Below are positions 10,283 through 64,000 of a stretch of DNA of 64,000 nucleotides, piece after piece. Below the pieces are notes generated by a model. It ran no database searches and was not told the origin of the DNA. It was given only the letters and a program-made list of their open reading frames with translations. The translations under genes and the position numbers were made by a program. Origin of the DNA: Dongia sedimenti (GTDB taxonomy: Bacteria > Pseudomonadota > Alphaproteobacteria > Dongiales > Dongiaceae); the NCBI GenBank assembly GCA_030715195.1, contig JAUYVI010000002.1:124001-188000 (forward strand). Direction: 5' to 3'. Within the stretch, counting starts at the first letter, position 1. Every line of letters starts with the position of its first letter.

Positions 10283-10305
10283 AGTAGAAACGGAATCTTG
10301 GCTGC

Positions 10306-10830
10306 TTAACTGAAATCGATCTGCGCGACCGGCTGGAACCTGGCGAAGCGGTCCTTCAGCAGGCCGCCGTGATAGGCGATCAGCTGGGCGGCGGTCATCA
10401 CGCTGTTGTCGAGCGTGGTGTGCGCGTCCTCGGCCAGGGTGACGTCATAGCCGAGCCCATGCGCCACCCGGCAGGCGGTGTCGATGCAGAAATCGGTCTG
10501 CATGCCGGCCACGACCAGCTTGTCGACCCCGAGCTTCTTCAGCGCCGCATCGAGCCCGGTGTCGCGGAACGAGCTGCAATGATACTTGGTGACGACCGTC
10601 TCGCCGGATTTGGGCGCCACTTCCGGCCGGATCGCGAAGCCTTCGTTGCCTTCATGCAGCGGATCGCCTTCGCCGCCGTCATGGCGGATATGGATGACGG
10701 GAATCCGGGCCGCCCGCGCCTTCTCCAGCAGCGCCTTTGCGTTCTTCAGGAAGGCCTGGTCGTTGTGCGGTGGCTTCTCCTCCATCCACATGCCCTGTTG
10801 GATATCGATCATCAGCAATGCCGTGGTCAT
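10306..10830 (-). CDS. Cysteine hydrolase of the isochorismatase superfamily
   Basis: 174-residue enzyme with the catalytic triad of this superfamily: D9 in LLMIDIQ, K82 in VVTKYHCSS and C115 in GMQTDFCIDT, with the usual GMQTD loop before the cysteine. Members hydrolyse amides or esters such as nicotinamide, N-carbamoylsarcosine or ureidoacrylate. The residue set identifies the fold and mechanism but not the substrate. It is a single-domain protein of normal family length. The neighbours do not point to a pathway. Confidence 0.85.
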   Translation of the reverse strand: MTTALLMIDIQQGMWMEEKPPHNDQAFLKNAKALLEKARAARIPVIHIRHDGGEGDPLHEGNEGFAIRPEVAPKSGETVVTKYHCSSFRDTGLDAALKKLGVDKLVVAGMQTDFCIDTACRVAHGLGYDVTLAEDAHTTLDNSVMTAAQLIAYHGGLLKDRFARFQPVAQIDFS

Positions 10831-10909
10831 GCCAGCCTCACCTGCTCCCGTGAATCCGATGCCTTCTGATAGCGCCGGGCGAGAGCAGGATCAACCCAGG
10901 CGGCAACAC

Positions 10910-11473
10910 TCACTTCTTCAGAATCTCCTCGCAAGCATCCATATCGTTGAGAAGCGCGAAGGTGTCGCCGTGATCGTCCAGGCAGCCCTGCTTCCATTCG
11001 CCGGTGTGCTGTTCGCCGTCGGCTTCGGTGTAGGTCCCCAGTCCGTCCGGCAGATCGTCCTTCCACGCGCCATCATATCGACTGTCCGACCAGGTGAAGA
11101 CTCCGTGTCCATCTTTCTGGCCGTCGCGGTACATCCCCTCATAACGATTGCCGTTGGGCAGGACCGCCGTTCCCTGGCCTTCCAACTTGCCGGCCAAGAC
11201 GCCGCCTGAATTGGTATAGGTCAGGGGGTTGCCCGCGGGATCGGTGTAATGCCAGGCGAGTGTGCCTTCGCCCTCGGCCTTGCCCGACCGGCAGTCGCCC
11301 GACCAGGTCGCGGTCTCGTTGCGTTGCGGGTACGGGTCCCAAACCTGGCAGTTTGGACGCTCCGTATCCATCCACTTGGCGACCTTCAGCTGCTCGGCCT
11401 CCCAGGCCTGCCAGCCCGCGATGCCGACGACCGCCATCGCAATCCCGGCAAGCGCGACCGACGGCCACCGCAT
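10910..11473 (-). CDS. Membrane-anchored MORN-repeat protein
   Basis: 187-residue protein with an N-terminal hydrophobic anchor (about 7-22) and periplasmic-looking remainder. The body contains MORN-like units: YEGMYRDGQKDGHGVF, then YDGAWKDDLPDGLGTY, then HTGEWKQGCLDD, preceded by a degenerate GEGTLAW unit. MORN repeats form open beta-sheet rods that bind lipids or proteins. Two Cys pairs (C43/C60 and C166/C182 approximately) could form disulfides in the periplasm. It starts 5 bases after gcvPB on the same strand, so it may be read from the glycine operon. Function unknown. Confidence 0.75.
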   Translation of the reverse strand: MRWPSVALAGIAMAVVGIAGWQAWEAEQLKVAKWMDTERPNCQVWDPYPQRNETATWSGDCRSGKAEGEGTLAWHYTDPAGNPLTYTNSGGVLAGKLEGQGTAVLPNGNRYEGMYRDGQKDGHGVFTWSDSRYDGAWKDDLPDGLGTYTEADGEQHTGEWKQGCLDDHGDTFALLNDMDACEEILKK

Positions 11474-11478
11474 GCGCC

Positions 11479-13023
11479 CTACTCCGCCGCCTTCTTCGCT
11501 TCCTCCGGCTTCCAGCGCAAATGCGGGCTGCGGGCCGCGAGAGTCTCGTCCAGGCGGCGGCGCGGCGTGTGATACGGGCAGCCTTCGAAATAGGCCTTGT
11601 CGCCCGCCTTCGCGCGCTTCGCGAGACCCTTGACGCTCTCGATGTAGCGGTCGAGGGCGTCGCGGCTTTCGGTCTCGGTCGGCTCCATCAATAGGGCGCC
11701 GTGCACCACCAGCGGAAAGTACATGGTCATCGGGTGATAGCCCTCGTCGATCATCGCCTTGGCGAAATCGAGGGTGGTGACGCCGGTGCCGTCGAGGAAG
11801 CTGTCGTTGAACAAAGCCTCGTGCATGCAGGTGCCCTCGAAGGCCGGGGTCAGCTCGTCCTTCAAGCCGGCCAGCAGGTAGTTGGCGTTGAGGACCGCGT
11901 CGCCCGACACGTGGCGCAGCCCGTCGGCACCGTGGCTCATCATGTAGGCGAGTGCGCGGACGAACATGCCCATCTGGCCGTGAAAGCCTTTCAGGCGGCC
12001 GAACGCCTTGCCGGTTTCGTCATGCTCGACCAGGTCGAACCCGCCCTTGCCGTGGACGACATAGGGCACCGGCGCGTAAGGCGCGAGCGCGTCGGAGAAC
12101 ACGACCGGGCCGGCGCCGGGGCCGCCGCCGCCATGGGGCGTCGAAAAGGTCTTGTGCAGGTTGATGTGCATGGCATCGACGCCGAGATCGCCCGGCCTAA
12201 CGCGGCCGACGATGGCGTTGAAGTTGGCGCCGTCGCAATAGAAGTAGCCGCCGACCGAATGGATCGCCGCGGCCAGCTCCTGGATGTCGTTCTCGAACAG
12301 GCCGCAGGTGTTCGGGTTGGTGATCATGGTGCCGGCGACGTCCGGCCCGAGCTTGGCCTTGAAGGCGGCGACGTCGACCCGGCCGCGGGCATCGGCCGGG
12401 ACCGGATCGACTTCGTAGCCGGCCGCGGCGGCGGTGGCCGGGTTGGTGCCATGGGCGGATTCCGGGACCAGGATGCGCTTGCGCGCATCGCCCTTGGCGA
12501 CCTGCGCCGCGCGGATCGCCAGGATGCCGCAGAGCTCGCCATGGGCGCCCGCCGCCGGCGAGAGCGCCACGGCCGGCATGCCGGTCAGCACCTTCAGCCA
12601 ATGGGCCAGGGTGTCGATCAGCTCCAGCGCGCCCTGCACGGTCGAGACCGGCTGCATCGGATGGAGATCGGCCAGGCCCGGCATCCGCACCGCCTTCTCG
12701 TTGAGGCGCGGGTTGTGCTTCATGGTGCAGGAGCCGAGCGGATAGACCCCCATGTCGATGGCGTAGTTCTTCTGCGAGAGCCGGGTGTAGTGGCGCACCA
12801 CCTGGGGCTCGGAAAGGCCCGGGAGGCCGATCGGGTTCTGCCGCTTCAAGCCGCCGAGGCGGTCCTGGTGCTTGGGCACCTCGGGGACGTCGACGGCGGT
12901 CCGGCCGGCCATGCCCTGCTCGAAGATCAGCGGCTCCTCGAGCATCAGGCCGCGATTGCCGGAGATGGTGCCGGGGCCGGAGCTTGCAGCTGCGGCCACG
13001 GTGCCGCTCGGTCGGTCGGCCAT
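11479..13023 (-). CDS. gcvPB: Glycine dehydrogenase (decarboxylating) subunit 2
   Basis: 514-residue C-terminal half of the split P-protein of the glycine cleavage system. It carries the PLP lysine in INLHKTFSTPHGGGGPG. With GcvPA it decarboxylates glycine and passes the aminomethyl group to the lipoyl arm of GcvH. Its ATG (13021-13023) shares one base with the gcvPA stop (TGATG), so the two subunits are translationally coupled. A longer open frame upstream inside gcvPA is not coding. Confidence 0.95.
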   Translation of the reverse strand: MADRPSGTVAAAASSGPGTISGNRGLMLEEPLIFEQGMAGRTAVDVPEVPKHQDRLGGLKRQNPIGLPGLSEPQVVRHYTRLSQKNYAIDMGVYPLGSCTMKHNPRLNEKAVRMPGLADLHPMQPVSTVQGALELIDTLAHWLKVLTGMPAVALSPAAGAHGELCGILAIRAAQVAKGDARKRILVPESAHGTNPATAAAAGYEVDPVPADARGRVDVAAFKAKLGPDVAGTMITNPNTCGLFENDIQELAAAIHSVGGYFYCDGANFNAIVGRVRPGDLGVDAMHINLHKTFSTPHGGGGPGAGPVVFSDALAPYAPVPYVVHGKGGFDLVEHDETGKAFGRLKGFHGQMGMFVRALAYMMSHGADGLRHVSGDAVLNANYLLAGLKDELTPAFEGTCMHEALFNDSFLDGTGVTTLDFAKAMIDEGYHPMTMYFPLVVHGALLMEPTETESRDALDRYIESVKGLAKRAKAGDKAYFEGCPYHTPRRRLDETLAARSPHLRWKPEEAKKAAE

Positions 13024-14378
13024 CACTTCACCTCCGCGAGGGATTCTTTGAGGGCGGTTTCGAGCGCCGCCATATCCGCTTCGGTCACCGTCTCGGTTGC
13101 CGCGACCAGCAGCAGGTTCTCGAGTTCGGGCTTGCCCGCGACCAGGCGCGCCACGGGAACGCCGCCGAGCACCCGCCGCCTCGCCATGGCTTCGACCACC
13201 GGGATCGCCGGCTTCGGCAGCGCCAGGGTGAACTCGTTGAAGAAGGTCTCGTTCAGGAGCTTCACGCCCGGGATTTTCGCCAGGCGGTCGGCGAGGTTCG
13301 AGGCGGTGGCATGATTGAGCTCGGCCAATCGCTGCAGACCCGCCTCCCCCAACAGCGTCAGGTGAATGGTGAAGGCGAGCGCGCAAAGGCCTGAATTTGT
13401 ACAAATATTCGAGGTCGCCTTCTCGCGGCGGATGTGCTGCTCGCGGGTTGAGAGCGTGAGCACCCAGCCGCGCTTGCCATCGACATCGACGGTCTGGCCG
13501 GCGAGCCGCCCCGGCATCTGCCGCAGGAACTTCTCCTTGCAGGCGAACAGGCCGACGTAAGGGCCGCCGAAGCCAAGGGAATTGCCGATCGACTGCCCTT
13601 CCGCCACGGCGACGTCGCAGCCGGTATTGCCCGGCGCGCGCACCAGGCCATAGGAGATCGCCTCGGTGCAGACCGCGATCACCAGCGCTCCGACGGCATG
13701 CGCTGCCTCGGACAAAGCCGCAAAATCAATCAGATGACCGAAGAAGCTGGGATTCTGGATGACGACACAAGAGGTGTCCTTGTCGATCTTCTTGAGGATG
13801 TCCTCGCGGGCTTCGGGATCGTAGGGCGCGGCGTCGACGGCGAAGCCGGTGTGCTCGCCATAGGTCTCGATCACCTGGCGGTAATGCGGGTGCAGGCTGC
13901 CGGAGATCACCGCCTTCTTCCGGCGGGTGACGCGGTTGGCCATCATCACCGCCTCGACCGTGGCGGTGGCGCCGTCATACATCGAGGCGTTCGCCACATC
14001 CATGCCGGTCAGCAAGGCGACCTGGGTCTGGAACTCGAAGAGGTACTGCAGCGTCCCCTGGGTCACCTCCGGCTGGTAGGGCGTGTAGGAGGTCAGGAAC
14101 TCGCCGCGCTGGATCAGGTGATCGACCGAGGCCGGGACATGGTGGCGGTAGGCGCCGGCGCCCAGGAAGCTCGGCACCGACCCGGTGCCAAGGTTCTTCG
14201 CGGCCATGGCGCCGATCGCGCGCTCGACCTCGAGTTCGCCGGCATGCCGCGGCAGATCGACCGGATCCTTGAGCAGAGCCCCGGCGGGCACGTCGCGATA
14301 AAGGCTCTCGACCGAGGGCACGCCGATCTTGGCCAGCATCGCCCGACGATCCTCGTCGGTCAGCGGGAGATAACGCAT
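13023..14378 (-). CDS. gcvPA: Glycine dehydrogenase (decarboxylating) subunit 1
   Basis: 451-residue N-terminal half of the P-protein, which pairs with GcvPB to make the PLP active site. It starts MRYLPLTDEDRRAML and contains the family motifs SFLGAGAYRHHVP and TPYQPEVTQGTLQ, which place substrate and cofactor. The split A/B form, rather than one 950-residue GcvP, is found in many Rhodospirillales and Gram-positive bacteria. It lies 35 bases after gcvH in the riboswitch-controlled operon. Confidence 0.95.
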   Translation of the reverse strand: MRYLPLTDEDRRAMLAKIGVPSVESLYRDVPAGALLKDPVDLPRHAGELEVERAIGAMAAKNLGTGSVPSFLGAGAYRHHVPASVDHLIQRGEFLTSYTPYQPEVTQGTLQYLFEFQTQVALLTGMDVANASMYDGATATVEAVMMANRVTRRKKAVISGSLHPHYRQVIETYGEHTGFAVDAAPYDPEAREDILKKIDKDTSCVVIQNPSFFGHLIDFAALSEAAHAVGALVIAVCTEAISYGLVRAPGNTGCDVAVAEGQSIGNSLGFGGPYVGLFACKEKFLRQMPGRLAGQTVDVDGKRGWVLTLSTREQHIRREKATSNICTNSGLCALAFTIHLTLLGEAGLQRLAELNHATASNLADRLAKIPGVKLLNETFFNEFTLALPKPAIPVVEAMARRRVLGGVPVARLVAGKPELENLLLVAATETVTEADMAALETALKESLAEVK

Positions 14379-14413
14379 GATTGGGATTCCGTCTTAGTGC
14401 AGGCCATTCTGGC

Positions 14414-14788
14414 TTAAAGACTGGCCACATAGGCCTTGTAGGCCGCCTCATCCATCAGCCCGTCGAGCTCGCTCTTGTTGGCGAGCTTGATCTTGGCGAA
14501 CCAGCCCTTGCCGAGGGCGTCCTCGTTGACGGTGGCCGGCGCGTCGGTGAGCGCATTGTTGACCTCGACCACCTCGCCGCCGATCGGGGCATAGACCTCG
14601 CTCGCCGCCTTCACGGATTCGACCACCGCCAGCTCCTTGCCCTTCTCGATCTTCTTGCCGATCTCGGGCAGCTCGACGAAGACCACGTCGCCCAGCTGCT
14701 CCTGGGCATAGGGGCTGATGCCGACGGTGGCGGTGTCGCCATCGACCAGCACCCATTCATGTTCCTTGCTGTAGCGGATCGCACTCAT
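14414..14788 (-). CDS. gcvH: Glycine cleavage system H protein
   Basis: 124-residue lipoyl carrier that shuttles the aminomethyl intermediate between P, T and L proteins. The lipoylated lysine is K60 in [14 protein letters not shown]. Other hallmarks are RYSKEHEWV at the N-terminus and [12 protein letters not shown]. The start at 14788 has GGGGAG six bases upstream. An in-frame ATG seven codons earlier lacks such a site and is rejected. Confidence 0.96.
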
Positions 14789-14805
14789 GTCAGACTCCCC
14801 GATGT

Positions 14806-15921
14806 TCAATTGCGGTGATAGCGGTGCTGGACGAAGGGCATCTTGGCGACGCGGGCGGCCAGGGCCTTGCCGCGCACCACCAGGCTGACCGCGTTGCCGA
14901 TGCCGGCCGAAGCGGTCGCGACATAGCCCATGGCGATCGGCTTGCCCAAGGACGGGCCGAAGCCGCCGGAGGTGACCTCGCCGATCTCGCGGCCCTCGTC
15001 ATTGGCGATCTCGGTATGGGCGCGGGCCGGCGCCTTGCCCTCGGGCAGGATGCCGACGCGCTTGCGCGTGACCCCCTCGGCCCACTGCTTCTGCAGCACG
15101 GCGTCGCCCGGGAAGCCGCCCGCCTTGCGCCGCCGCTCGGCGATCGCCCAGGAAAGCCCGGCCTCGACCGGCGTGGTCTTCTCGGTGATGTCGCTGCCAT
15201 AGAGGCAGAGCCCGGCTTCCAGCCGCAGCGAGTCGCGGGCGCCGAGCCCGATCGGCTTCACCTCGGGCTCCTGCAAGAGCGTGCGCGCAAAGGCTTCGGC
15301 GGTGCCGCCCGGCACCGAGATCTCGAACCCGTCCTCGCCGGTATAGCCGGAGCGGGTCGCGTAGCACTTCACGCCCGCGATCTCGAGCGCGGCGCCGGTC
15401 ATGAAGGTCATCTTCGCGCTGGCCGGGGCCAGGCGCGCGACCACCGCGCCCGCCTTCGGCCCCTGCAGCGCCAGCAGCGCGAAATCGTCCAGCCGCTCGA
15501 GTCTGCAATCGGCGGGCAGGCTGGCGGCGATATGCCGATAATCGGCGTCCTTGCAGGCGGCATTGACCACCATGCGCAGGGTTTCGCCGTCGCGGGTCAC
15601 CATCAGGTCGTCGAGGATCCCGCCCTTGGCGTTGGTGAGGAACCCGTAGCGCTGCTGCCCGGATTGCAGCGAGCGGAAATCGTTGGGGCAGAGCTTCTCG
15701 ACCGCGGCGGCCGCGGCGTCATAACTCGGCGCGGTGATGCGGAACTGGCCCATATGCGAGACATCGAACAGGCCGGCAGCGCCGCGCGTGTGCTGGTGCT
15801 CGCCGAGGATGCCCATGGGATACTGGACCGGCATGTCATAGCCGGCGAAGGGCACCATCTTGGCGCCCAGCTCCACATGGAGATCGTGGAGCGGCGTGCG
15901 TTTGAGTGAAGCCTCTGACAA
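14806..15921 (-). CDS. gcvT: Glycine cleavage system aminomethyltransferase (T protein)
   Basis: T protein moves the methylene group to tetrahydrofolate and frees ammonia. It has about 371 residues from a TTG start at 15921, which has GGAGG exactly five bases upstream (15927-15931). A more distal ATG at 15975 would lie inside the riboswitch and is rejected. Motifs: [22 protein letters not shown], and [13 protein letters not shown]. It is the first gene of the operon and directly follows the tandem glycine riboswitch. It is followed by gcvH after 17 bases. Confidence 0.95.
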
Positions 15922-15969
15922 AACGTCCTCCGACCGAACAGGGATGCGCAGCTCCCCCTCGCGGCGGAA

Positions 15970-16219
15970 GCGCAACCCCCCTCTGTCCTTGGACCTGAGA
16001 GATTTCCCGGACGTAAATGACGCGCCCCCATCTTACGGAAGGTGGCAGGCGCGCGCCGGGTTTACTCCTTCGGTGGGCCGAGTCGAGACAATGACTCGGC
16101 CGCTTTCCAGAGCTGCATGTCGCCGCGGTCCTTTTGCCTGAGAGTTTCCGGGGGCGGTTGCTCCTTCGGCGTCGGACCACACTCGCCTGAATGCGGCTCG
16201 ATCTCTCCCGCAGGCGACA
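15970..16219 (-). ncRNA. Tandem glycine riboswitch controlling gcvT-gcvH-gcvPA-gcvPB
   Basis: Two glycine aptamers in series, read on the minus strand. Aptamer 1 spans about 16118-16219: P1 pairs TGTCGCC (16213-16219) with GGCGACA (16118-16124), and the conserved CCGAAGGAGCAA is at 16158-16169, followed by GGAAACTCTCAGGCAAAAGG. Aptamer 2 spans about 15970-16110, with CACCGAAGGAGTAAA at 16061-16075 and GGGAAATCTCTCAGGTCCA, then AGGACAGAGG. A short hairpin (GCCGAGTC...GACTCGGC) lies between them. The tandem form is typical of ON switches in front of gcv operons. The expression platform is not obvious; it may act on the gcvT ribosome binding site. Confidence 0.93.
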
Positions 16220-16288
16220 GTGTCGCGCGCACCTTGGGCCGGGCGCGCGACGAGGTCAAGGGGTCAGATGCCGGCGGAGCGCGCGTCG

Positions 16289-16516
16289 CTATTTCTTCTT
16301 GCCGCCGTTGGGGTCGTATTTGAACGAGACCTTGAGCTTGGTGCGGAAGGCTTCGACCTTGCCGTTCTCGATCACCAGATCCTGCTCGATGACTTCGGCG
16401 ACGCGCAGGTCGCGCAAGCTGCGCGAGGCGAGCTTGATCGCCGCCATCGCGGCATCTTCCCAGGACTTGCTGCTGGTCCCGATCAGTTCGAGGACTTTGT
16501 AGACGCTATCGGCCAT
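16289..16516 (-). CDS. Dodecin family flavin-binding protein
   Basis: 75-residue protein of the dodecin family. These assemble as hollow dodecamers that store riboflavin, FMN or related cofactors. MADSVYKVLELIGTSSKSW at the N-terminus, AAMAAIKLASRSLRDLR (helix) and the three-strand pattern ending LKVSFKYD match the family and its usual length of 65-75. The start at 16516 has GGGAGG six bases upstream; an upstream in-frame TTG is rejected. It is transcribed alone, upstream of the glycine operon on the same strand. Confidence 0.92.
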   Translation of the reverse strand: MADSVYKVLELIGTSSKSWEDAAMAAIKLASRSLRDLRVAEVIEQDLVIENGKVEAFRTKLKVSFKYDPNGGKKK

Positions 16517-16658
16517 GCCTGCCTCCCAATGCCTGGGTATGCAGAACGCCCGATCCGGGCCCAAGCTCCCGAACGGGCCTTGGTGGTGCTGGAATGCTAG
16601 GGCCGAAGTGGAGAGGCGTCAAACCGAGTGCTCGATCGGCGTCCGTGCGCGTTCTGCA

Positions 16659-16788
16659 CCGTCAACCCCCACCCCAACCCGCCCCCATCTTGGGGGCGGG
16701 GGACGGATAGAACCATCACTTACCGCAGCGTCTTCAATACAGCCCCTTCCCCCAAGATGGGGGAAGGCCAGGAAGGGGGTTGACGGTT
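16659..16788. repeat. Paired inverted intergenic repeat, family 1 (copy 3)
   Basis: The left arm starts ACCGTCAACCCCCACC and folds around CCCGCCCCCATCTTGGGGGCGGG. The right arm (16743-16788) mirrors it and ends GGGGGTTGACGGT. The arrangement (outer arm, C-rich spacer, inner palindrome, about 50-base centre) matches the copies at 6592-6720 and 10113-10282. It occupies most of the roughly 300-base gap between the lipoprotein and dodecin genes; no gene is seen there. Confidence 0.87.
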
Positions 16789-16814
16789 CCGCTGCTGCGA
16801 GGCCGAAGCGCAGC

Positions 16815-17387
16815 CTATTGCTGCGGGTTGCGGCGGTTGTAGGCCAGTTCCTTCTCGGTCACTTCGAGAAAGACGTAGATCTGGTAGTAGTCGCCGTTCT
16901 CGCCCTTCTGCAGCGGGATCGTCACCGTCGGGTTGTCGACGATCGTGGCGGTCGGCTTGTCGGCGGTGAGCGGGATGGTCACGTCGAACTGCTGGCGGGT
17001 GATCTTCCGGCCGCCCTGGCCGGTCAGGGCGATGACGTAGTTGAACGTCACCTGATCGCCAGTGAGCTTCGGCCCGCGGGACGCGGTGAGCTTGACCAAG
17101 AGATCGCTCACGATCTTGGTCTTCTTGGTGTCGGTGTCCTCGCTATAGATGCATTTCGGCGACACATCGACCAGCTTCGCCTCGAACGCGGTGTCGGTCA
17201 GGTCCTCCGACTCGCCGGCAAAGCGGGTCAGGTAGGCGGCGTCGGGAACCGCCTTCACCGACGGGCAGGGCATCGACTGCTTCGGTGTCTCCGCGCAGGA
17301 CGCCACCGCGAGCAAAACCACAGGCAGCAGGGCGCCCAGCAGAACGCCGCGCCCGATCCGATTGATAGCGCGCGCGCCGGCACCCAT
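16815..17387 (-). CDS. Predicted lipoprotein of unknown function
   Basis: About 190 residues with a signal peptide (GVLLGALLPVVLLAV) and a lipobox ending ASC, so it is likely a lipid-anchored periplasmic protein. The mature part has beta-rich stretches (DQVTFNYVIALTG, KITRQQFDVTIPL) and four cysteines counting the lipid-modified one, two of them close together near the N-terminus. I recognise no enzyme motif. The ATG at 17387 has GGGGGAAGG upstream. An ATG at 17408 is an alternative with a weaker site. Confidence 0.72.
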   Translation of the reverse strand: MGAGARAINRIGRGVLLGALLPVVLLAVASCAETPKQSMPCPSVKAVPDAAYLTRFAGESEDLTDTAFEAKLVDVSPKCIYSEDTDTKKTKIVSDLLVKLTASRGPKLTGDQVTFNYVIALTGQGGRKITRQQFDVTIPLTADKPTATIVDNPTVTIPLQKGENGDYYQIYVFLEVTEKELAYNRRNPQQ

Positions 17388-17431
17388 CACCTTCCCCCGA
17401 TCCGTCATGAATGCTTCACTCGATGAATGCC

Positions 17432-17671
17432 TTATAGGGCCTTGTGCGAGCCGTCGCAGAACGGCTGGCCGCTCGTGTGCTTGCAGCCGCAGAAGAACAC
17501 GCTCTTCGATTCGGTCGCGTCGTATTTCATCGGCGAGAAGGCGGAGCCCTTGTGCGAGCCGTCGCAGAACGGCTGGCTCTTGCTCAAGCCGCAGGCGCAC
17601 CAGAAATAGGCCTTGCCCGCCACCACATCCACCTTGAAGGGCGCCTTCTGCGCCACGTTCGGCTCGGCCAT
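17432..17671 (-). CDS. Double CDGSH-type iron-sulfur protein
   Basis: 79-residue protein with two CDGSH [2Fe-2S] motifs: CACGLSKSQPFCDGSH and CGCKHTSGQPFCDGSH. Each supplies three Cys and one His ligand, as in mitoNEET-type proteins. In single-domain eukaryotic forms two chains pair; here both modules are in one chain. Such proteins act in redox or Fe-S transfer, with unknown partners. The start at 17671 has GAGAGGGA upstream. It shares a divergent 235-base region with ispH, another iron-sulfur enzyme. Confidence 0.93.
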   Translation of the reverse strand: MAEPNVAQKAPFKVDVVAGKAYFWCACGLSKSQPFCDGSHKGSAFSPMKYDATESKSVFFCGCKHTSGQPFCDGSHKAL

Positions 17672-17847
17672 CGTCGATCCCTCTCCCGCCCGACCGCCGG
17701 TCCGGTTGGGCCAGGCGGGTCGTGGCCGGACTTTAATTAACCCTCTGAAATTCCACAAGCCCGCCGCGGTTTGGTCATGAACCGCCAGCATGATCGGCAC
17801 CGCAATGTCCGCCCCGTTCGTCTCCCGCCACGCCTACCGGATTGCCG

Positions 17848-17875
17848 TTGCCCAGGGCCCGCAAATCCCTATATT
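17848..17875 (+). promoter_or_regulatory. Candidate promoter of the ispH-thrB-rnhA operon
   Basis: TTGCCC (17848-17853) and TATATT (17870-17875) are separated by 16 bases and lie 31 bases before the ispH ATG at 17907. Position supports this ATG over in-frame starts further upstream, which would fall before the promoter. Confidence 0.5.
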
Positions 17876-17906
17876 CCGGGGCAACAGAGCAATCGCGGAA
17901 TCCGGC

Positions 17907-18851
17907 ATGCCGAAACGGCCCCTTACGATCCTCCTGGCCTCGCCGCGCGGCTTCTGCGCCGGGGTCGATCGCGCCATTCAGATCGTGCAGCGCGCCCTGG
18001 AGCGTTTCGGCGCCCCGGTCTATGTCCGCCACGAGATCGTGCACAACCGGCATGTGGTCGAGGAGCTGGAGCGCCAGGGCGCCGTCTTCGTCGAGGAGCT
18101 GGACGAGATTCCCGGCCAGTATCCCGTCGTGTTCTCCGCCCATGGCGTGCCGAAATCGGTGCCGGCCGACGCCGAGGCGCGCAAGCTGCTCTATCTCGAC
18201 GCCACCTGCCCGCTGGTCAGCAAGGTGCATCGCGAGGCCGAGGTCCATTACAATGCCGGCCACCATCTGATCCTGATCGGCCATGCCGGTCACCCCGAAG
18301 TGATCGGCACCATCGGCCAGCTGCCGCCGGGCGCGGTCACCCTGATCGAGACCATCAACGATGCCGAGAAGCTCAGCTTCAAGGATCCGACCCGCCTCGC
18401 CTACATCACCCAGACCACGCTTTCGATCGACGACACGGTCGGGATCATCGAGGTGCTGCGCCGCCGCTTCCCGGCGATCCATGGGCCGCGCAAGGAGGAC
18501 ATCTGCTACGCGACCACCAACCGCCAGTCCGCGGTGAAGTCGATCGCCGAACGCTGCGAGCTCATGCTGGTGATCGGCGCGCCGAATTCGTCGAACTCGC
18601 GCCGCCTGGTCGAAGTGGCCAAGAGCTGCGGCTGCCCCGCCGCCTATCTGGTGCAGAAGGCCGAGGAGATCGACTGGGACTGGCTGGAGGGTGTCGAGAC
18701 GGTCGGCATCACGGCGGGCGCTTCGGCGCCGGAGCTGCTGGTCCAGCAGGTGATCGACGAGCTGAAGGAGCGCTTCGACGTGACCATCGAGGAAACCTCG
18801 GTCACGGTCGAGACCACGCATTTCAAGCTGCCGCGCGCCCTCACCGCCTGA
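17907..18851 (+). CDS. ispH: 4-hydroxy-3-methylbut-2-enyl diphosphate reductase
   Basis: Last enzyme of the non-mevalonate isoprenoid pathway; it makes IPP and DMAPP using a [4Fe-4S] cluster. 314 residues. Cluster ligands are C17 ([12 protein letters not shown]), C101 ([12 protein letters not shown]) and C200 ([12 protein letters not shown]), with SAHG near residue 77-80. IPP and DMAPP also feed the hopanoids that the HpnR-like enzyme would modify, though the genes are not linked. It is the first gene of an ispH-thrB-rnhA operon, an order common in alphaproteobacteria. Confidence 0.97.
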
Positions 18852-18888
18852 TCCTTCAAGCCTGACCCTTCCGCAAGACTGATCCTCC

Positions 18889-19851
18889 ATGGCCGTCTAC
18901 ACCGAAGTCCCCGACGGCGATCTCGCCCAGTTCATCGCCGAATACGATATCGGCGAGCCGGTCTCGTGCAAGGGCATCGCCGAGGGCGTCGAGAACAGCA
19001 ACTACCTGCTGAAGACGACGAAAGGCACCTTCATCCTCACCCTCTATGAGAAGCGGGTGAAGCTGGAGGACCTGCCCTTCTTCATCGGCCTGATGCAGCA
19101 TCTGGCAGGCAAGGGCCTGAACTGCCCGACCCCGATCGCCGATCGCCAGGGCCAGGCGCTGAAGACGCTGTGCGGCCGGCCCGCGGCCTTGATCAGCTTC
19201 CTCGAAGGCATGTGGCCGCGCCGGCCGACCGAGAAGCACTGCCAGGCCTTGGGCGCCGCGCTCGCCGACTTCCATCTCAAGGGCCGCGACTTCGCCTTGC
19301 GCCGCCCCAACAATCTGTCGGTCGAAGGCTGGCGGCAGCTGATCGCCGCCACCGCCGATCGCGCCGACGAGGTCGAAGCCGGGCTCGGCGCGAAGCTCGC
19401 CAAGGAGTTCGCCTATCTGGAAGCGCATTGGCCGAAGGACTTGGAGAGCGGCGTCATCCATGCCGATCTCTTCCCCGACAACGTGTTCTTCCTCAACGAC
19501 AAGCTCTCCGGCATCATCGATTTCTACTTCGCCTGCACCGATTTCCTGGCCTATGACCTCGCGGTCTGCCTGAACGCCTGGTGCTTCCAGCCGGATATGA
19601 GCTTCAACGTCACCAAGGCGAAGCTGATGTTCGAGAGCTATCGCAGGGTGCGCCCGATCCCGGAGGCCGAGATGCAGGCGATGCCGCTGCTCGCGCGCGG
19701 CGCCGCCTTGCGCTTCCTGCTGACCCGGCTTTACGACTGGCTCAACCATCCGCCCGGCGCCTTCGTGAAGCCGAAGGATCCGATGGAATACATCCGCAAG
19801 CTCCGCTTCCACCAGGCGGCGCGCGATATCGGCGCTTATGGTTTGAAATGA
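18889..19851 (+). CDS. thrB: Homoserine kinase (APH-like type)
   Basis: 320-residue kinase that phosphorylates homoserine in threonine synthesis. It is of the aminoglycoside-phosphotransferase-like type rather than the GHMP type found in enterobacteria. Motifs: [10 protein letters not shown] in the glycine-rich loop region, catalytic [11 protein letters not shown], and the Mg-binding IIDFYFAC. Its last codons overlap the rnhA start (ATGA at 19848-19851). The partner gene thrC is elsewhere in the window, at 48064-49470. Confidence 0.93.
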
Positions 19852-20321
19852 GCGCCGCTGAAGCCAAGAACGAGACCAAAGCCACGGTGGTCGACATCTT
19901 CACCGACGGCGCCTGCAGCGGCAATCCCGGCCCCGGCGGCTGGGGCGCCCTGCTCCGTTACGGCGAAGTCGAGAAGGAACTCTCCGGCGGCGAAGCGCAG
20001 ACGACCAACAACCGCATGGAGATGATGGCGGCGATCGCGGCGCTGGAGGCCTTGAAGCGCCCTTCCACCGTGCGCGTCCACACCGACAGCCAGTATGTGA
20101 TGAAGGGCATCACCGAATGGGTGCCGCAATGGAAGAAGCGCGGCTGGCGCACCGCCGACAAGAAGCCGGTGAAGAACTCGGACCTCTGGCAGCGGCTGGA
20201 AAAGGCCGGGCAGCCCCACCAGGTCAAATGGTTCTGGGTCAAAGGCCATAACGGCCATGTCGAGAACGAGCGCGTCGATCTGCTGGCGCGCCTGGCGATC
20301 CCGGCAAGGTCCGTCGGGTAG
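19848..20321 (+). CDS. rnhA: Ribonuclease HI
   Basis: 157-residue nuclease that cuts RNA in RNA-DNA hybrids, for primer removal and R-loop resolution. The four acidic catalytic residues are D20 ([12 protein letters not shown]), E58 (NNRMEMMAA), D80 (VHTDSQYV) and D144 ([10 protein letters not shown]), with the family spacing. HNGH supplies the catalytic histidine. The start overlaps the thrB stop by four bases; longer upstream reading is only an open frame within thrB. Confidence 0.97.
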
Positions 20322-31924: not shown

Positions 31925-31950
31925 CAACAACCCGACAGGGATTCCCATCC

Positions 31951-33399
31951 ATGAAGATCGCAGAATATGCCGGCCATGATGCCACCGGGCTCGCCGAACT
32001 CGTCGCCCAGAAGCAGGTCACGCCGAAAGAGCTGGCGCAGACCGCGGCGCAGGCGATCGCCGCCGCCAATCCCAAAGTCAATGCGGTGGTCGAGCTCTAT
32101 CAAGACCGGATCGAGGGGCTGGACGAGAAGAGTCTGCCCGACGGACCTTTCAAGGGGGTGCCGTTCCTGATCAAGGATATCGGCCAGCATCTCGACGGGC
32201 GGAAGTTCGAATGCGGCAGCCGCTTGATGCAAGGCTTCGTGGTCGAGGGCGACAGCCATGTCGGCAAGCTGTTCAAGCAAGCGGGCTTGAACATCATCGG
32301 CCGCTCCAACGCGCCGGAATACTCGGTCGCGGGCACCACGGAGAACGCGCTCTACGGCAACACCTCGACGCCCTGGCGCGAGGGCTATTGCGCGGGCGGC
32401 TCCACCGGCGGCGGGGCCGCCGCCGTCGCCTCGGGCATGGTGCCGATGGCGCATGGCTCGGATATCGGCGGCTCGATCCGCATCCCGGCGAGCTTCTGCG
32501 GCGGCGTTGGGCTGAAGCCCTCGCGCGGCCGCGTCTCGGCCGGGCCGCGCGTCGAGGAAGGCGGCTGGGGGCTCGCCATGAATCTCGGGCAGACCAAGAC
32601 CATCCGCGACACCGCCGCCTTACTCGACGCGATGGCGAAGCCGCAGGTCGGCGATCCGTTCTGGATCCCGAAGCCCGAAGAGAGCTACCTCTCGCTCATC
32701 AAGCGGCAGCCGGGGAAGCTGAAGATCGCCTGGTCAGTGGATCCGGTGATGGACGCTCCGGTCGACAAGGAGGTCGCCGCGGCGGTCGAGCGCACCGCGA
32801 AGCTGCTGCAATCGCACGGCCACGAGGTCTGGGAAGAGGCGCCGGAGTTCGACGGCGAGGAAGCCAGCCGCAAGATGCTGGACGTCTGGTTCTTCGGCTT
32901 CGCCGAGAACCTCGATGCGGTCGGCGCCAAGCTCGGCCGCAAGGTCGGGCCGGACACGCTGGAGCCGATCACGCTCAAGATCTACGAGCATTCCAAGGGC
33001 ATCACGCCCAAGCGCTTCCTGGAGAGCCACGCCGCGATCAACACGCTGCGGCGCAAGCTGGGAAAGCTGATGGCGAAATGCGACGTCTGGATCTCGCCCA
33101 CCACGGCGCAGGTCGCCGAGCCGAACGGGCTCTACAACCTGGGCCGCGAGGGCGTGTCGGCGGAGGAATACATCGTGACGGCCGACCGGCCGCTGCAATT
33201 CACCTTCCAGCACAATGTCATGGGGACGCCGGCGATCTCGCTGCCGCTGGCACTGCACAGCAACGGCCTCCCCATCGGCGTGCAGCTCGGCGCCAACCCG
33301 GCGCAGGAGCACATCCTGCTGCAGCTCGCCGCCTTGCTGGAGCAGGAGATGCCGTGGAAAGACCGGGTGCCGCCGCTCCACGTGACGCGCGGGGTCTGA
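31951..33399 (+). CDS. Amidase-signature hydrolase (copy 1)
   Basis: 482-residue enzyme of the amidase-signature family, with a Ser-cisSer-Lys triad: K75 (PFLIKDIG), S151 (AGGSTGGGAA) and S175 (IGGSIRIPA). The N-terminal run DATGLAELV and the overall order resemble 6-aminohexanoate cyclic dimer hydrolase (NylA-like) and related amidases. The substrate is probably a linear or cyclic amide. It follows the SIS gene by 26 bases. It is roughly 70 percent identical to the next gene in the first 90 residues by hand count. Confidence 0.9.
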   Translation: MKIAEYAGHDATGLAELVAQKQVTPKELAQTAAQAIAAANPKVNAVVELYQDRIEGLDEKSLPDGPFKGVPFLIKDIGQHLDGRKFECGSRLMQGFVVEGDSHVGKLFKQAGLNIIGRSNAPEYSVAGTTENALYGNTSTPWREGYCAGGSTGGGAAAVASGMVPMAHGSDIGGSIRIPASFCGGVGLKPSRGRVSAGPRVEEGGWGLAMNLGQTKTIRDTAALLDAMAKPQVGDPFWIPKPEESYLSLIKRQPGKLKIAWSVDPVMDAPVDKEVAAAVERTAKLLQSHGHEVWEEAPEFDGEEASRKMLDVWFFGFAENLDAVGAKLGRKVGPDTLEPITLKIYEHSKGITPKRFLESHAAINTLRRKLGKLMAKCDVWISPTTAQVAEPNGLYNLGREGVSAEEYIVTADRPLQFTFQHNVMGTPAISLPLALHSNGLPIGVQLGANPAQEHILLQLAALLEQEMPWKDRVPPLHVTRGV

Positions 33400-33406
33400 G
33401 GTCGGC

Positions 33407-34855
33407 ATGAAGATCTCGGAATACACCGCCTATGACGCGACCGGCCTCACGGAACTGGTCGCAAAGCGCGAAGTGACGCCGACCGAGCTCGCGCGCTGTG
33501 CGGCGGAGGCGATCGCCGCGCGCAATCCCAAGGTCAACGCGGTGGTCGAGCTCTATGCCGATCGCATTGAAAAGCTCGACGAGACGACCCTCGGGAACGG
33601 TCCCTTCCGCGGCGTGCCGTTCCTGATCAAGGATATCGGCGGGCATCTCGACGGGCGCAGGATCGAGTTCGGCAGCCGGCTCTGCGCAGGGCTCACCACC
33701 ACCGACGGAGACACCCATGTCGGCCGGCTGTTCAAGGCGGCGGGGCTCAACATCATCGGCCGCTCCAACGCGCCGGAATATTCCATGTCCGGCACCACCG
33801 AGAACGCGCTCTACGGCAACACCTCGACACCCTGGCGCGAAGGTTACAGCGCGGGTGGCTCGACGGGTGGCGGCGCGGCGGCGGTCGCCGCCGGCATGGT
33901 GCCGATGGCCCATGGCTCGGACATCGCCGGCTCGATCCGCATTCCGGCTGCCTTATGCGGCGGGGTCGGGTTGAAGCCCTCGCGCGGCCGCGTCTCGATC
34001 GGACCGAAGATCGACGAAGGCGGCTGGGGCCTGGCCGCGAATTTCGCGCAGACCAAGTCGATCCGCGACACCGCCGCTTTGCTCGACTGCATGGCGGTGC
34101 CGCAACCGGGCGATCCCTTCGTCATTCCGAAACCGGCGGAGTCTTATGCGAGCCTGATCCGGCAAGAGCCGCCGAAGCTCAAGATCGGCTGGTCCACGAA
34201 GCCACTGAACGACCGGCCGGTCGATCCGGAGATCGCGGCAGCGGTGGAACGCACGGCCAAGCTGCTGGCGTCACTCGGCCACGAAGTCGAAGAGGATCAC
34301 CCGGACTATGACGGCGAGGACGCGGCGCAGCGCATGCTCGACGTCTGGTTCTTCGATTTCCCGAAGCGCATCGACTCCTACGCCGCACAGACCGGCCGCA
34401 AGCCCGGCCCGGGCACGCTGGAGCCGGTAACCCTCGCGATCTACGAATATGCGAAGACCATCAGCACGCCGCAGTTCCTGACCGCGCATGGCGCATTGAA
34501 CACGATGCGCCGCAAGCTCGGGCCGTATTTCCAGCGGCATGATTTGTGGCTGTCACCGACCACGGCGGCAGTCGCCGAGCCCTGGGGCCGGTACAATCTC
34601 GGCCGCACCGATCTCTCGCCGCAAGCGTACATGGCGCACATCTTCCGCCAGATCCAATTCTGCTTCCCGCACAACGTCATGGGCACGCCGGCGATCTCCT
34701 TGCCGGTGGCGATGCACAGCAGCGGCTTGCCCATCGGGGTGCAGTTGGGTGCACGGCCGGCGGAGGAGCATCTGCTGCTGCAGGTGGCGGCGGTGTTGGA
34801 GAGGGAGTGTGGGTGGGGGGAGAAGGTGGTGCCGATGGCGGTGCGCGCCGTCTAA
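33407..34855 (+). CDS. Amidase-signature hydrolase (copy 2, tandem paralogue)
   Basis: Also 482 residues, 7 bases after copy 1, and clearly a duplicate: 10 of 10 residues identical in PKVNAVVELY, and the triad is K75, S152 and S176. The one-residue shift reflects a small indel. It differs at positions lining the entry (for example EYSMSG for EYSVAG, CGSRLM for FGSRLC), which suggests a changed substrate. Its stop codon overlaps the stop of the converging low-GC nuclease gene by three bases (34852-34854), so a boundary of the islet is here. Confidence 0.9.
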   Translation: MKISEYTAYDATGLTELVAKREVTPTELARCAAEAIAARNPKVNAVVELYADRIEKLDETTLGNGPFRGVPFLIKDIGGHLDGRRIEFGSRLCAGLTTTDGDTHVGRLFKAAGLNIIGRSNAPEYSMSGTTENALYGNTSTPWREGYSAGGSTGGGAAAVAAGMVPMAHGSDIAGSIRIPAALCGGVGLKPSRGRVSIGPKIDEGGWGLAANFAQTKSIRDTAALLDCMAVPQPGDPFVIPKPAESYASLIRQEPPKLKIGWSTKPLNDRPVDPEIAAAVERTAKLLASLGHEVEEDHPDYDGEDAAQRMLDVWFFDFPKRIDSYAAQTGRKPGPGTLEPVTLAIYEYAKTISTPQFLTAHGALNTMRRKLGPYFQRHDLWLSPTTAAVAEPWGRYNLGRTDLSPQAYMAHIFRQIQFCFPHNVMGTPAISLPVAMHSSGLPIGVQLGARPAEEHLLLQVAAVLERECGWGEKVVPMAVRAV

Positions 34856-40388: not shown

Positions 40389-40429
40389 TGGCGGTCGCAG
40401 CAAAGTTGGTTCGGCATGAAGATTATACT

Positions 40430-40521
40430 CCGTCATGCCGGGACTTGGTCCCGGCATCCACGCCTTTCTATCGTGCGGCACTCAAGGCGTGGATCCCGGC
40501 GCCTAGCGCCGGGATGACGGA
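40430..40521. repeat. Palindromic intergenic repeat, family 2 (copy 1)
   Basis: A 92-base imperfect dyad starts CCGTCATGCCGGGACTTGG and ends GCCGGGATGACGGA, with AAGGCGTGGATCCC as the internal arm pairing GGCATCCACGCCTT. A second copy is at 47948-48038 and a half copy at 49558-49588. It lies inside the ABC operon, between the binding-protein stop and the permease start. Confidence 0.9.
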
Positions 40522-40544
40522 GGAATACGCGGAAGCGCCGAACC

Positions 40545-47940: not shown

Positions 47941-47947
47941 CTAAACT

Positions 47948-48038
47948 CCGTCATGCCCGGACTTGGTCCGGGCATCCACGCCTTTGCATCCTGCGGCACC
48001 CAAGGCGTGGATCCCCGCGCCTAGCGCGGGGATGACGG
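47948..48038. repeat. Palindromic intergenic repeat, family 2 (copy 2)
   Basis: A 91-base dyad, CCGTCATGCCCGGACTTGG to CGCGGGGATGACGG, with internal arms GGCATCCACGCCTT and AAGGCGTGGATCCC. It fills the gap between the thrC stop and the M16 start in the same transcription direction. The unit is close to copy 1 in length and layout. Confidence 0.9.
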
Positions 48039-48063
48039 AAGAGAATGAAATCGACCTTCTCAT

Positions 48064-60159: not shown

Positions 60160-61593
60160 ATGTCAAATCTGATCGAGGCCGACCGGCTGTTTTTCGAACG
60201 GGCCGGGCTGGACCGATCGCGGATCGAGCGCACGGTCGCCGATTCGCTGAAGGGCGCCGACGACGGCGAGCTCTATCTGGAATACGCCCAATCCGAGGCC
60301 CTCTCCTATGACGACGGCAGGCTGAAGAGCGCCAGCTTCGACACCACGCAAGGCTTCGGCCTGCGCGCGGTCAGCGGCGAGACCCATGGCTATGCCCATG
60401 CCAGCGAGCTTTCGGAAGCCGCGATCAAGCGCGCGGCAGAGACGGTGAAGGCGGTCCATGCCGGGCGCGGCGGCAAGCTCGACGTGGCGCCGAGCGGCAC
60501 CAACCGGCAGCTCTACAAGCCCGACAACCCGATCGCCCTGGTGCCCTTCGAGAACAAGGTGACGGTGCTGCAGGAGATCGACGCTTACGCCCGGGCCAAG
60601 GACCCGCGGGTAAAGCAGGTCATGGCTTCGATCTCCGGCTCCTGGCAGGCGATCGAGATCCTGCGCGGTGACGGCGCCCGCACCGCCGACATCCGGCCGC
60701 TGGTCCGGCTGAACGTCACCGTCATGGTCGAGGCCAACGGCAAGATGGAGACCGGCAGCCACGGCACCGGCGGCCGCATCGGCTACGAGTCCCTGCTCGA
60801 GCCGGAGCACTGGAAGGCGAGCGTCGATGAGGCGCTGCGCCAGGCGCTGGTCAACCTCGACTCGGTCCCCGCCCCCGCCGGCGAGATGCAGGTGGTGCTC
60901 GGGCCCGGCTGGCCGGGCATCCTGCTGCACGAGGCGATCGGGCACGGGCTGGAGGGCGATTTCAATCGCAAGAAGACCTCCGCCTTCGCCGGGCTGATGG
61001 GCCAGCGCGTGGCCGCCAAGGGCGTCACCGTGGTCGATGACGGCACGCTCGGCCAGCGCCGCGGTTCGCTCACCATCGACGACGAAGGCACGCCGACCCA
61101 GTGCACCACGATGATCGAGGACGGGATCCTGGTCGGATACATCCAGGACCGGCAGAACGCGCGGCTGATGGGCATGAAGCCGACCGGCAACGGGCGGCGC
61201 CAGAGCTTCGCCCACAGCCCGATGCCGCGCATGACCAACACGATCATGATGAACGGCCCGAGCGATCCGAAGGAAATCATCAGCTCGGTGAAGAAAGGCC
61301 TCTATGCCGTCAATTTCGGCGGCGGTCAGGTCGATATCGTCTCCGGCAAGTTCGTGTTCTCGGCGGCCGAGGCCTACCTGATCGAGGATGGCAAGATCGG
61401 TCCCGCCGTGAAGGGTGCGACGCTCATCGGCAACGGGCCCGACGTGCTGACCAAGGTTGAGATGATCGGCAACGACATGATGCTCGATCCCGGCATCGGC
61501 ACCTGCGGCAAGGACGGCCAGGGCGTTCCGGTCGGCGTCGGACAGCCGACGCTGCTGATCGGAGGCCTGACCGTGGGCGGCACCGGCGGCTGA
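60160..61593 (+). CDS. tldD: Metalloprotease TldD
   Basis: 477-residue subunit of the TldD/TldE zinc protease. The zinc motif is HExxxH (H257, E258, H262) in LLHEAIGHGLEGD. The family C-terminus with SGKFVFSAAEAYLIEDG is intact, and C449 in GTCGKDGQ is the expected third ligand. TldD/E process peptide precursors such as microcin B17 and CcdA in E. coli. No tldE or precursor peptide gene is adjacent in this window. Its 3' end (bases 61498-61562) is duplicated at 63782-63846. Confidence 0.96.
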   Translation: MSNLIEADRLFFERAGLDRSRIERTVADSLKGADDGELYLEYAQSEALSYDDGRLKSASFDTTQGFGLRAVSGETHGYAHASELSEAAIKRAAETVKAVHAGRGGKLDVAPSGTNRQLYKPDNPIALVPFENKVTVLQEIDAYARAKDPRVKQVMASISGSWQAIEILRGDGARTADIRPLVRLNVTVMVEANGKMETGSHGTGGRIGYESLLEPEHWKASVDEALRQALVNLDSVPAPAGEMQVVLGPGWPGILLHEAIGHGLEGDFNRKKTSAFAGLMGQRVAAKGVTVVDDGTLGQRRGSLTIDDEGTPTQCTTMIEDGILVGYIQDRQNARLMGMKPTGNGRRQSFAHSPMPRMTNTIMMNGPSDPKEIISSVKKGLYAVNFGGGQVDIVSGKFVFSAAEAYLIEDGKIGPAVKGATLIGNGPDVLTKVEMIGNDMMLDPGIGTCGKDGQGVPVGVGQPTLLIGGLTVGGTGG

Positions 61594-61746
61594 CCGCCAT
61601 CCAAAAATATAACGCGTGAGATCTTAGACCTGCGGCCTGAGACCCGAGACCTAGACTTCGTTTCAGAACACTGGGGCGGAGTCTAGGCAAGCTGGAACAC
61701 GCGTGCTAGTTCTCCCCGCCGCGATTTTCAATTGAAGAGAACACCA

Positions 61747-63771
61747 ATGCTCCGGGAAGGCCATTCCGCCGACGCCATGCGCGCGGAACCCGAACATTTG
61801 CGTCTTGGCCTGTTCGCCGTCGCACTGTCATTGATACTCACCCTTCTCATGTTGATCCTGCGGGTCGGCCTGCCGACGCCGCCGATGGCGCTGCTGGTCG
61901 GTCCGGCAATCCTCAGCGTCGCGGTGCTGCCGCCGCTGCTGCTCGCGCGCGCGCTCTGGGTCGGACCGCTGGCGGCGCTGGGACTGCTGATCGGTTGTGC
62001 CTTGGCCGCGATCGGAATTGTCGGAACGGCCATTCTCTGGATTGCGGCGTTGGGTTCGATTGGCGTCGCCGTCATGCGGACGCGACGCGACGGACCCGGC
62101 CGGCTCTGGCTCTGGACTCTGCTGCTCATCGTCACCGGCCTGCTGTCGGCGCAGCTGATCAACGGCAGCAAGTACCTCAGTTTCGTCGCCGACCAGTTGC
62201 TGCTCTACGGCCGCACCGACGGCGACATGATGTTCCACGGCGCGATCACCAACGCCTATCGCTACTTCCACTTTCCGAGCACCGGGATCGACGGCCTGAA
62301 GCTGCTCCGCTACCACACCGGAATCGATGCGCTGGCGGCAATGATTGCCGCCGGAAGCCGCATCGACGCGGTATTGGCACTGATCGTCGTCAGGGCGCAG
62401 ATCCTGTTTCCGCTGACGGTGTTCGCCGCCGCCTGGGCCGGCAGTGTGCTCGGCCGCGCCCTCTTGCCGACCTACGCCTTCCGCCCGCTCGGCCTCACCG
62501 TCGCCGCATTGCTTTTGGTGGTCCTGCAGCAGTGCGGCTCGTTCCCCGAACTGGGGGCGGATAACGACCCCTTGCTGCTCAGCGGCAACCTGCTCCTCCT
62601 GATCATGCCGACCGTGACGGTCGACCTTCTCAGTCGCCGCAGCGAAGCCTGGGCGTCGCTGGTGCTCGCCGTGATCGCGGTGGCGTTTCTCTGCCTGGCG
62701 AAGGTCTCGACCGGGACAATGTGGTGTGCGTTCGCGGGCTACCTGGTGCTTCGGTCGATCGGCCCGAAGCGGGCCGCCTTCTGGATCACCGGCGTTGCCA
62801 TGCTCCTGGTCTTCCTGCTGAGCACGCTCCTCACGACCGAGCCCGGCCAGTCCGGTGCGGTCTGGTTCGGGACACCGTTCTTCGTGGAGTACGGCTTCCG
62901 CAAGGGCAACTACGACCTGCCGCTTCAACTGCACGCCTATCTGCTGGTGGCCCTGCTGGCGATGCTGGGATTCCGCAAGACTTCCGCCGCGCCGCAGACA
63001 AGATACCTGTTCGAAGCGCTTCTGGTCACCGCGGCGCTTGCCAATCTGGTCGGCCTGGTGTTGCAGATCCCCGGCGCCGACGCGGTGTTCTTCTTTTCCG
63101 CCGTGAGCTGGCTGGTTCTGCCGCTGCTGGTCATGCTGGCCGCGGCGGTTCCGCAGATCGTCCGGCGGTTCGCGCCGCGCGGCCGACGCCTGGCCTGGGG
63201 CGCGGTCGCCGTGGTGCTCGTCGCCGCCACCGTCGATGGAGGTGTCAGGACCGTCAATCGGTTCTATCTGGCCGTCTCGGCCGCGGCGTTGCTGCATACC
63301 GGAGACCTCACTTACTACGCAAGCGACAGGCGCCGCGTCTGGCGCGCCGATGCCCGGCGCGCGCTGGCCGAACACGGTCTCCTCGGTCTCTACCGACTGC
63401 CGCCGCCGACGCCGCTCGCGCTCGGCCTGCAGGACGCACTCGCCGCGGCCAAGCGCGCCGACCCTGCGACCGCGGCTTACATCCCGCCGCAATCCGACTA
63501 CTGGAACCAGGTGCGCGATTGCGACGGACGCAGCCTGTGGCCGATGGCGGCGGCCGGCGTGCCACTGATCGACGGCTATGTCCCGGTGCAGGACGAATGC
63601 CCGCAGGAGTTCGCCCTTACCGGATACGGCACGCCGCCGCCGGTCCGCGTGCCGCTGTCGGATTCCGAGCTTAGCCGCCGCGCGGCCGCCGCGGGATTCC
63701 CGGTCGTGCTGGAGATCGAGAGCTTGAAGGACCGCACCAAGGACCGGCTCGCCGCGCCTTGGCAGCCCTGA
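61747..63771 (+). CDS. Large multi-span membrane protein of unknown function
   Basis: About 674 residues. From about residue 20 to 520 the sequence is a series of hydrophobic segments, roughly 11-13, with loops such as YGRTDGDMMFHGAITNAYRYFHFPS between the early helices. The final 150 residues are soluble and Pro-rich (RLPPPTPLALG). The long first extracytoplasmic loop recalls GT-C glycosyltransferases, but I see no clear catalytic motif, so no function is given. An ATG at 61747 is chosen; a TTG at 61732 is possible. It lies between tldD and a diverged fragment of the tldD 3' end. Confidence 0.72.
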   Translation: MLREGHSADAMRAEPEHLRLGLFAVALSLILTLLMLILRVGLPTPPMALLVGPAILSVAVLPPLLLARALWVGPLAALGLLIGCALAAIGIVGTAILWIAALGSIGVAVMRTRRDGPGRLWLWTLLLIVTGLLSAQLINGSKYLSFVADQLLLYGRTDGDMMFHGAITNAYRYFHFPSTGIDGLKLLRYHTGIDALAAMIAAGSRIDAVLALIVVRAQILFPLTVFAAAWAGSVLGRALLPTYAFRPLGLTVAALLLVVLQQCGSFPELGADNDPLLLSGNLLLLIMPTVTVDLLSRRSEAWASLVLAVIAVAFLCLAKVSTGTMWCAFAGYLVLRSIGPKRAAFWITGVAMLLVFLLSTLLTTEPGQSGAVWFGTPFFVEYGFRKGNYDLPLQLHAYLLVALLAMLGFRKTSAAPQTRYLFEALLVTAALANLVGLVLQIPGADAVFFFSAVSWLVLPLLVMLAAAVPQIVRRFAPRGRRLAWGAVAVVLVAATVDGGVRTVNRFYLAVSAAALLHTGDLTYYASDRRRVWRADARRALAEHGLLGLYRLPPPTPLALGLQDALAAAKRADPATAAYIPPQSDYWNQVRDCDGRSLWPMAAAGVPLIDGYVPVQDECPQEFALTGYGTPPPVRVPLSDSELSRRAAAAGFPVVLEIESLKDRTKDRLAAPWQP

Positions 63772-63781
63772 CGCACCGTTC

Positions 63782-63846
63782 GGGACCCGCGGCAACGACG
63801 GCCAAGGCGTGCCGGGCGGCGTCGGCCAGCCGACCCTGCTGAACGG
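63782..63846 (+). pseudogene. 65-bp diverged duplicate of the tldD 3' end
   Basis: Bases 63782-63846 align without gaps to 61498-61562 of tldD; I count 9 differences in 65. The translation reads GTRGNDGQGVPGGVGQPTLL against GTCGKDGQGVPVGVGQPTLL. The zinc-ligand cysteine C449 is replaced by Arg. Homology stops abruptly on both sides. No start or upstream tldD sequence accompanies it. It is therefore a remnant and not a gene. Confidence 0.88.
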
Positions 63847-63849
63847 CCA

Positions 63850-63877
63850 GGGCCGATTCTGCGGCCAGAATCGGCCC
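63850..63877. other. Perfect 12-bp hairpin after the tldD fragment
   Basis: GGGCCGATTCTG (63850-63861) and CAGAATCGGCCC (63866-63877) pair perfectly with a CGGC loop, four bases after the tldD fragment. No T-run follows. It may be a terminator of another kind, a repeat, or the end of a mobile element. The remaining bases to 64000 show nothing I can assign. Confidence 0.7.
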
Positions 63878-64000
63878 GGTCGCGGTCCGGGCCGAACCGC
63901 GCCCAGCGCTGTAAACATCGGATTCCGCTCAGGCTTTGACACAATATGCTGTGGATGGCATGGAAGGCACCGAGTAGACTGCGCCCGCTCGATCCGGCGC

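Follow-up and report, generated by a model that had tools for sequence, protein, structure and literature searches.

A short second copy of the 3′ end of the tldD gene lies about 2.3 kb downstream of its source in the analysed window, the whole stretch of 64 kb corresponding to C12:124001-188000 of a 6.13-Mb draft genome (G000, 26 contigs). This copy is probably a non-functional, decaying fragment of the genome's own tldD gene, which would have arisen after the split of this lineage from its relatives and been left at the rebuilt border between the genes mem1 and GT2 of a variable glycan-type gene cluster. The features of the region are as follows:

60160-61593, + strand: tldD, intact, encoding a metalloprotease subunit of 477 aa (NCBIfam NF008006 equivalog, 558 bits against a cut-off of 513).
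61496-61562, + strand: source copy of the repeat, inside the 3′ end of tldD; the final 31 bases of tldD (61563-61593) lie outside the repeat.
61594-61731, + strand: spacer, present once in the genome and predicted to form a 17-pair hairpin at 61650-61687.
61732-63771, + strand: mem1, whose product has many hydrophobic stretches and a length of 679 aa if read from the TTG start (674 aa if from the ATG at 61747); putative membrane glycosyltransferase by context only.
63780-63846, + strand: decayed, truncated copy of the tldD tail, 58/67 identical to the source and 8 bases from the mem1 stop codon.
63847-64000, + strand: intergenic DNA before the GT2 gene, with a perfect 12-bp hairpin at 63850-63877.

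The two copies form a 67-bp direct repeat that aligns without gaps, with a spacing of 2284, and the downstream copy is truncated on both sides. The coordinates, common orientation, spacing and 9 mismatches given in the first-pass annotation are correct, and the match runs two bases further to the left. The annotation also held that both copies read as the same peptide. This is true of five of the nine differences, which are silent; the remaining four alter a residue (C>R, K>N, V>G, I>N). One complete membrane-protein gene does lie between the copies, as had been described; its product, mem1, has no Pfam or NCBIfam family.

The local alignment score of the repeat is 89; when the tail was subjected to 200 dinucleotide shuffles, the scores averaged 28 and did not exceed 40. 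Across the 64-kb window, ungapped 67-mers with at least 58 identical bases were found at four offsets in the range 200-19,999, one of which is the tldD-tail pair. Two of the other three belong to a pair of tandem paralogous genes at 31950-34521, which we take to be amidase-like and which share DNA stretches of 70-85% identity. The third is an interspersed 101-nt palindromic repeat (40424-40524 and 47942-48042, about 90% identical) that perhaps represents a genome-wide repeat family. The window also contains an inverted repeat at 16658-16787, whose 55-nt arms are 76% complementary and lie 20 nt apart. When the whole genome was searched with a degenerate pattern at up to three mismatches, exactly two sites were obtained, both of them the tldD-tail copies, and the reversed control gave none. 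The genomic copy number is taken from this pattern search and not from the DNA similarity searches, because the latter scored 40 candidates each, out of 111, 202 and 110, and the known partner copy was not among the hits listed. A weak match at C1:358462 appeared in the genome DNA search. It is extremely improbable that an assembly artefact or chance similarity explains the repeat: the genome is indeed a draft of 26 contigs, but the copies are not identical, with 9 of 67 sites differing, and sit well within an 844-kb contig, and the repeat score far exceeds those of the shuffles.

The differences between the copies are distributed in a way that points to decay of the downstream one. At five of the nine differing sites the base of the copy is absent from all 18 relatives, and four of these sites are the residue-altering ones, at which the 18 relatives all share the base of the resident tldD. 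As none of the four residue changes is seen in any of the 18 relatives, the copy has lost its coding constraint. On this evidence the tail copy appears to drift freely, with the resident tldD still under selection. The share of silent differences, 5/9, is slightly above the expectation for pure drift (P about 0.08), which also fits import from a related strain. For two of the silent sites, 61542 and 61551, the base of the copy occurs in 15/18 and 11/18 relatives and that of the resident tldD in 0/18 and 5/18, respectively, and at four of the five silent sites the state of the copy is also seen in some of these relatives. Both copies have the ending GG, which is present in 0/18 relatives; this is a weak, one-base sign of a common origin within the lineage. 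The two copies also have a CTG codon in common, which may be old since it occurs in 3/18 relatives. With the GG ending in no relative but the CTG codon in three, an origin of the copy within this lineage is weakly favoured.

The cluster that contains the copy consists of seven genes past tldD up to der: mem1, GT2, asnB, two methyltransferase genes, mem2 and gtrA. The GT2 glycosyltransferase gene starts at 64038, 38 bases beyond the window end. The best NCBIfam match of its product is an ArnC-type transferase model, at 220 bits and thus below the cut-off of 529. The product of gtrA carries a GtrA domain (PF04138), and asnB encodes an asparagine-synthase-like protein. The combination of a GtrA-domain protein and a GT2 enzyme in one cluster resembles the GtrA/GtrB systems with a dedicated membrane transferase, which modify sugars. 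The cluster differs from these systems in that mem1 and mem2 have no Pfam family or PDB sequence relative and occur as a pair, together with asnB and methyltransferase genes.

No tail copy was found downstream of tldD in 18 relative loci, 16 from the family and two from the class, where the best scores were 36 in forward and 39 in reverse orientation against 89 for the repeat; the downstream stretch covered about 4 kb in G015, whose tldD is near a contig start, and about 10 kb in G016. The same holds for 76 tldD loci of named genomes, with best scores of 41 forward and 45 reverse. These 76 are the loci, out of 80, that have at least 300 bases behind tldD, and none of them contains a match to mem1, mem2, GT2, asnB or gtrA at E 1e-6. 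In the TldD tree the genome of the window falls outside a supported clade of six genomes labelled as the same genus; its lineage is isolated, and the sample includes no close relative of it. Two relatives, G009 and G013, carry a gene of the mem family directly 3′ of tldD without the tail copy. In G016, which also lacks the copy, tldD is followed by a methyltransferase gene and then by a mem gene.

The surroundings of tldD have been rearranged in the studied genome, and the relatives carry other DNA behind this gene. The genes bamB and der are neighbours in 14/14 relatives, a count from which G007 and G016 are left out: 13 have them within 150 bp and G011 has them 1.4 kb apart. In G000 the two genes lie on different contigs, bamB ahead of carB on C4 and der after gtrA on C12. 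The best NCBIfam match of the G000 bamB product is BamB, below the cut-off of that model. The downstream stretches of the 18 relatives contain no der match. A block of EamA, DUF1289 and cyclase genes, which lies behind tldD in G001, G004 and other relatives, is found in G000 on C23 beside carA, and no convincing trace of the tldD tail was detected beside the relocated EamA/cyclase block (best 28-29 bits). A candidate reciprocal breakpoint at C4:69410, where DNA behind bamB matches the tldD end, was rejected; the match lies within carB and is taken as chance. The GT2-asnB pair points towards the mem gene in G013 and G016 and away from mem1 in G000, so the mem1/GT2 border that holds the copy is a changed border. 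The split of bamB from der, the relocation of the EamA block and the changed orientation of GT2-asnB together place the copy at a rebuilt border. The rearrangement is lineage-specific and extends over C12, C4 and C23 of this genome (L003, L119, L117).

We propose that a tandem duplication of about 2.3 kb, with one end in the tldD tail and the other shortly after mem1, is the most likely mechanism by which the copy would have been formed. A deletion would then have removed the second unit except for its first 67 bp. The suggestion of the first-pass annotation that an old tldD duplication has been mostly lost fits this scheme, but no longer tldD remnant follows the copy. The segment 63847-64037 gave no trace of a second mem1 or of the tldD spacer above shuffles when compared with 61563-63771, and the deletion step is therefore unseen. 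The missing remainder of the duplicated unit is what is expected if it was deleted, and it lends no support to the scheme. As to intermediates, the relatives examined yielded neither a complete tandem duplicate nor a second genome that carries the copy. Like other remnants of partial gene duplications, the copy is a truncated direct copy of a gene end near its source, non-coding and drifting; it differs from them in that the rest of the unit is wholly gone and that its site coincides with a larger rearrangement. A single old duplication as the source of the tail copy as well as of the mem1/mem2 pair was also considered and rejected. The tail retains 87% identity despite its lack of constraint, compared with 44% between the mem1 and mem2 proteins, and mem2 resembles the G016 gene (60%) more than it does mem1. 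Judged by this divergence, the mem1/mem2 pair is far older than the tldD-tail repeat.

The same scar could be left in one step if a patch had been copied from tldD during break repair. According to this alternative, the copy is the fossil of a templated patch, 67 bp of the tldD end having been copied into the mem1/GT2 join while the present order of tldD, cluster and der was being formed; we regard this as possible, though on the unlikely side. It also seems rather unlikely that the tail was imported, that is, that the block from GT2 to gtrA was transferred from a related strain together with a piece of the donor's tldD. In line with such a transfer are the slight excess of silent differences, the presence in some relatives of the copy's base at four of the five silent sites, and the genes beside tldD in G016, which are similar to those of this cluster (MT1 77%, GT2 61%, mem2 60%, asnB 50%). 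However, no sampled relative matches the copy better than the resident tldD does (57/67 for the best one, G015, against 58/67), and the last 31 bases of the donor gene would have to be missing too. We thus judge tandem duplication followed by loss to be the likeliest origin, a patch copied in break repair the next and an imported tail the least likely of the three. The order of events and the repair mechanism are what we infer from the present arrangement.

Direct repeats on the same strand, one of them at the 3′ end of a gene and with another gene between them, are reminiscent of the attachment repeats that genomic islands leave at gene 3′ ends, where a direct repeat of the gene end likewise surrounds other DNA. 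The first-pass annotation had accordingly interpreted the tldD copies as attachment sites, attL and attR of an integrase using the tldD 3′ end, with mem1 as cargo. This is very unlikely. The annotation itself saw no integrase, and the Pfam and NCBIfam searches of the genes from tldD to der agree with it. Nor was an integrase found by Pfam among nine further neighbours, one of which gave no hit; the scan covered these genes only. No tRNA is present in L003, L052 and L053. After an insertion, the distal copy must precede the displaced remainder of the target, which here would be the last 31 bases of tldD and the DNA following it. The comparison of 63847-64037 with tldD gave a score of 26, a value reached by 22 of 200 shuffles, and the displaced tldD end was not found. 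The annotation had advised a look past the window end for an integrase or more tldD sequence; the GT2 gene and the rest of the glycan-type cluster are located there. Neither the 72,556 plasmid records nor the 50,697 phage records contain a match to mem1 at E 1e-5, and the composition of this gene (GC 0.676, GC3 0.85) is near that of its neighbours. The annotation had named relatives with the same gene order and no copy as evidence against an insertion. G009 and G013, with mem-family genes behind tldD and no tail copy, come near this, although the tree does not make their genes strict orthologues of mem1. The locus therefore differs from an island flanked by attachment repeats in that no integrase was identified, no displaced gene end is present at the far copy, no empty site was found in a sample that includes no close relative of this lineage, and the gene between the copies is part of a longer cluster. 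The passages on tldD in PMC6207609, PMC3161016 and PMC7716436 do not describe this gene as an attachment site; according to PMC3161016, Yersinia enterocolitica has an accessory gene cluster downstream of tldD.

A role of the copy as a conserved functional element, such as a terminator, an RNA element or a recombination site, is likewise highly improbable. Strong hairpins are predicted at two places, 61650-61687 shortly behind tldD and 63850-63877 directly behind the tail copy, and the second of them would speak for such an element. This hairpin is, however, outside the repeat and is not among the three listed terminator-like sites. The copy is not predicted to fold better than shuffled sequence (z 0.16), it is absent from the other loci examined, and conserved residues are lost in its tldD reading. 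The intergenic DNA at 63847-64000, in which the hairpin lies, shows no similarity to tldD, the tldD spacer or mem1.

The gene between the copies belongs to a small family of membrane proteins. In an alignment of eight mem proteins, G155 and D160 of mem1 (within the motif GRTDGD) are invariant, as are 22 further columns. As regards a possible GT-C type of membrane glycosyltransferase, a PDB sequence search gave no relative of mem1 at E up to 1 and none for mem2 either. The single-sequence structure model of mem1 has a mean pLDDT of 44, too poor for fold comparison. Clear mem matches in the family sample are confined to G000 and four genomes of the genus g4, with a marginal match in G001; the family, which we take to be Dongiaceae, and the order are each represented by 17 genomes. 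Among 385 genomes drawn from the class, four match mem: G000, G253 at 26% identity, and G001 and G339 marginally. The mem tree leaves out the two marginal matches. A GT2 match is found near the mem gene in all five other mem loci of the family (G253 not being counted here), three of the matches being only 25-29% identical and one lying about 5 kb away. Loci of the mem family (L003:2733-11825, L040, L042, L038, L114 and L115) lie behind tldD in several genomes of the family, near GT2 genes. The linkage of mem, GT2 and GtrA genes suggests that the mem proteins may take part in sugar transfer from a polyprenyl carrier.

The locus gives reason for caution in the reading of similar arrangements, since direct repeats of a gene 3′ end around another gene need not mean an island. 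If the copied patch were the true origin of the tail copy, it would be a bacterial case of filler copied into a rearrangement junction, at a locus that shuffles an undescribed family of putative membrane glycosyltransferases. This mem family, which is without prior description and is encoded near sugar-transfer genes, is a modest side lead, and knowledge of its function would be worth more than the repeat itself.
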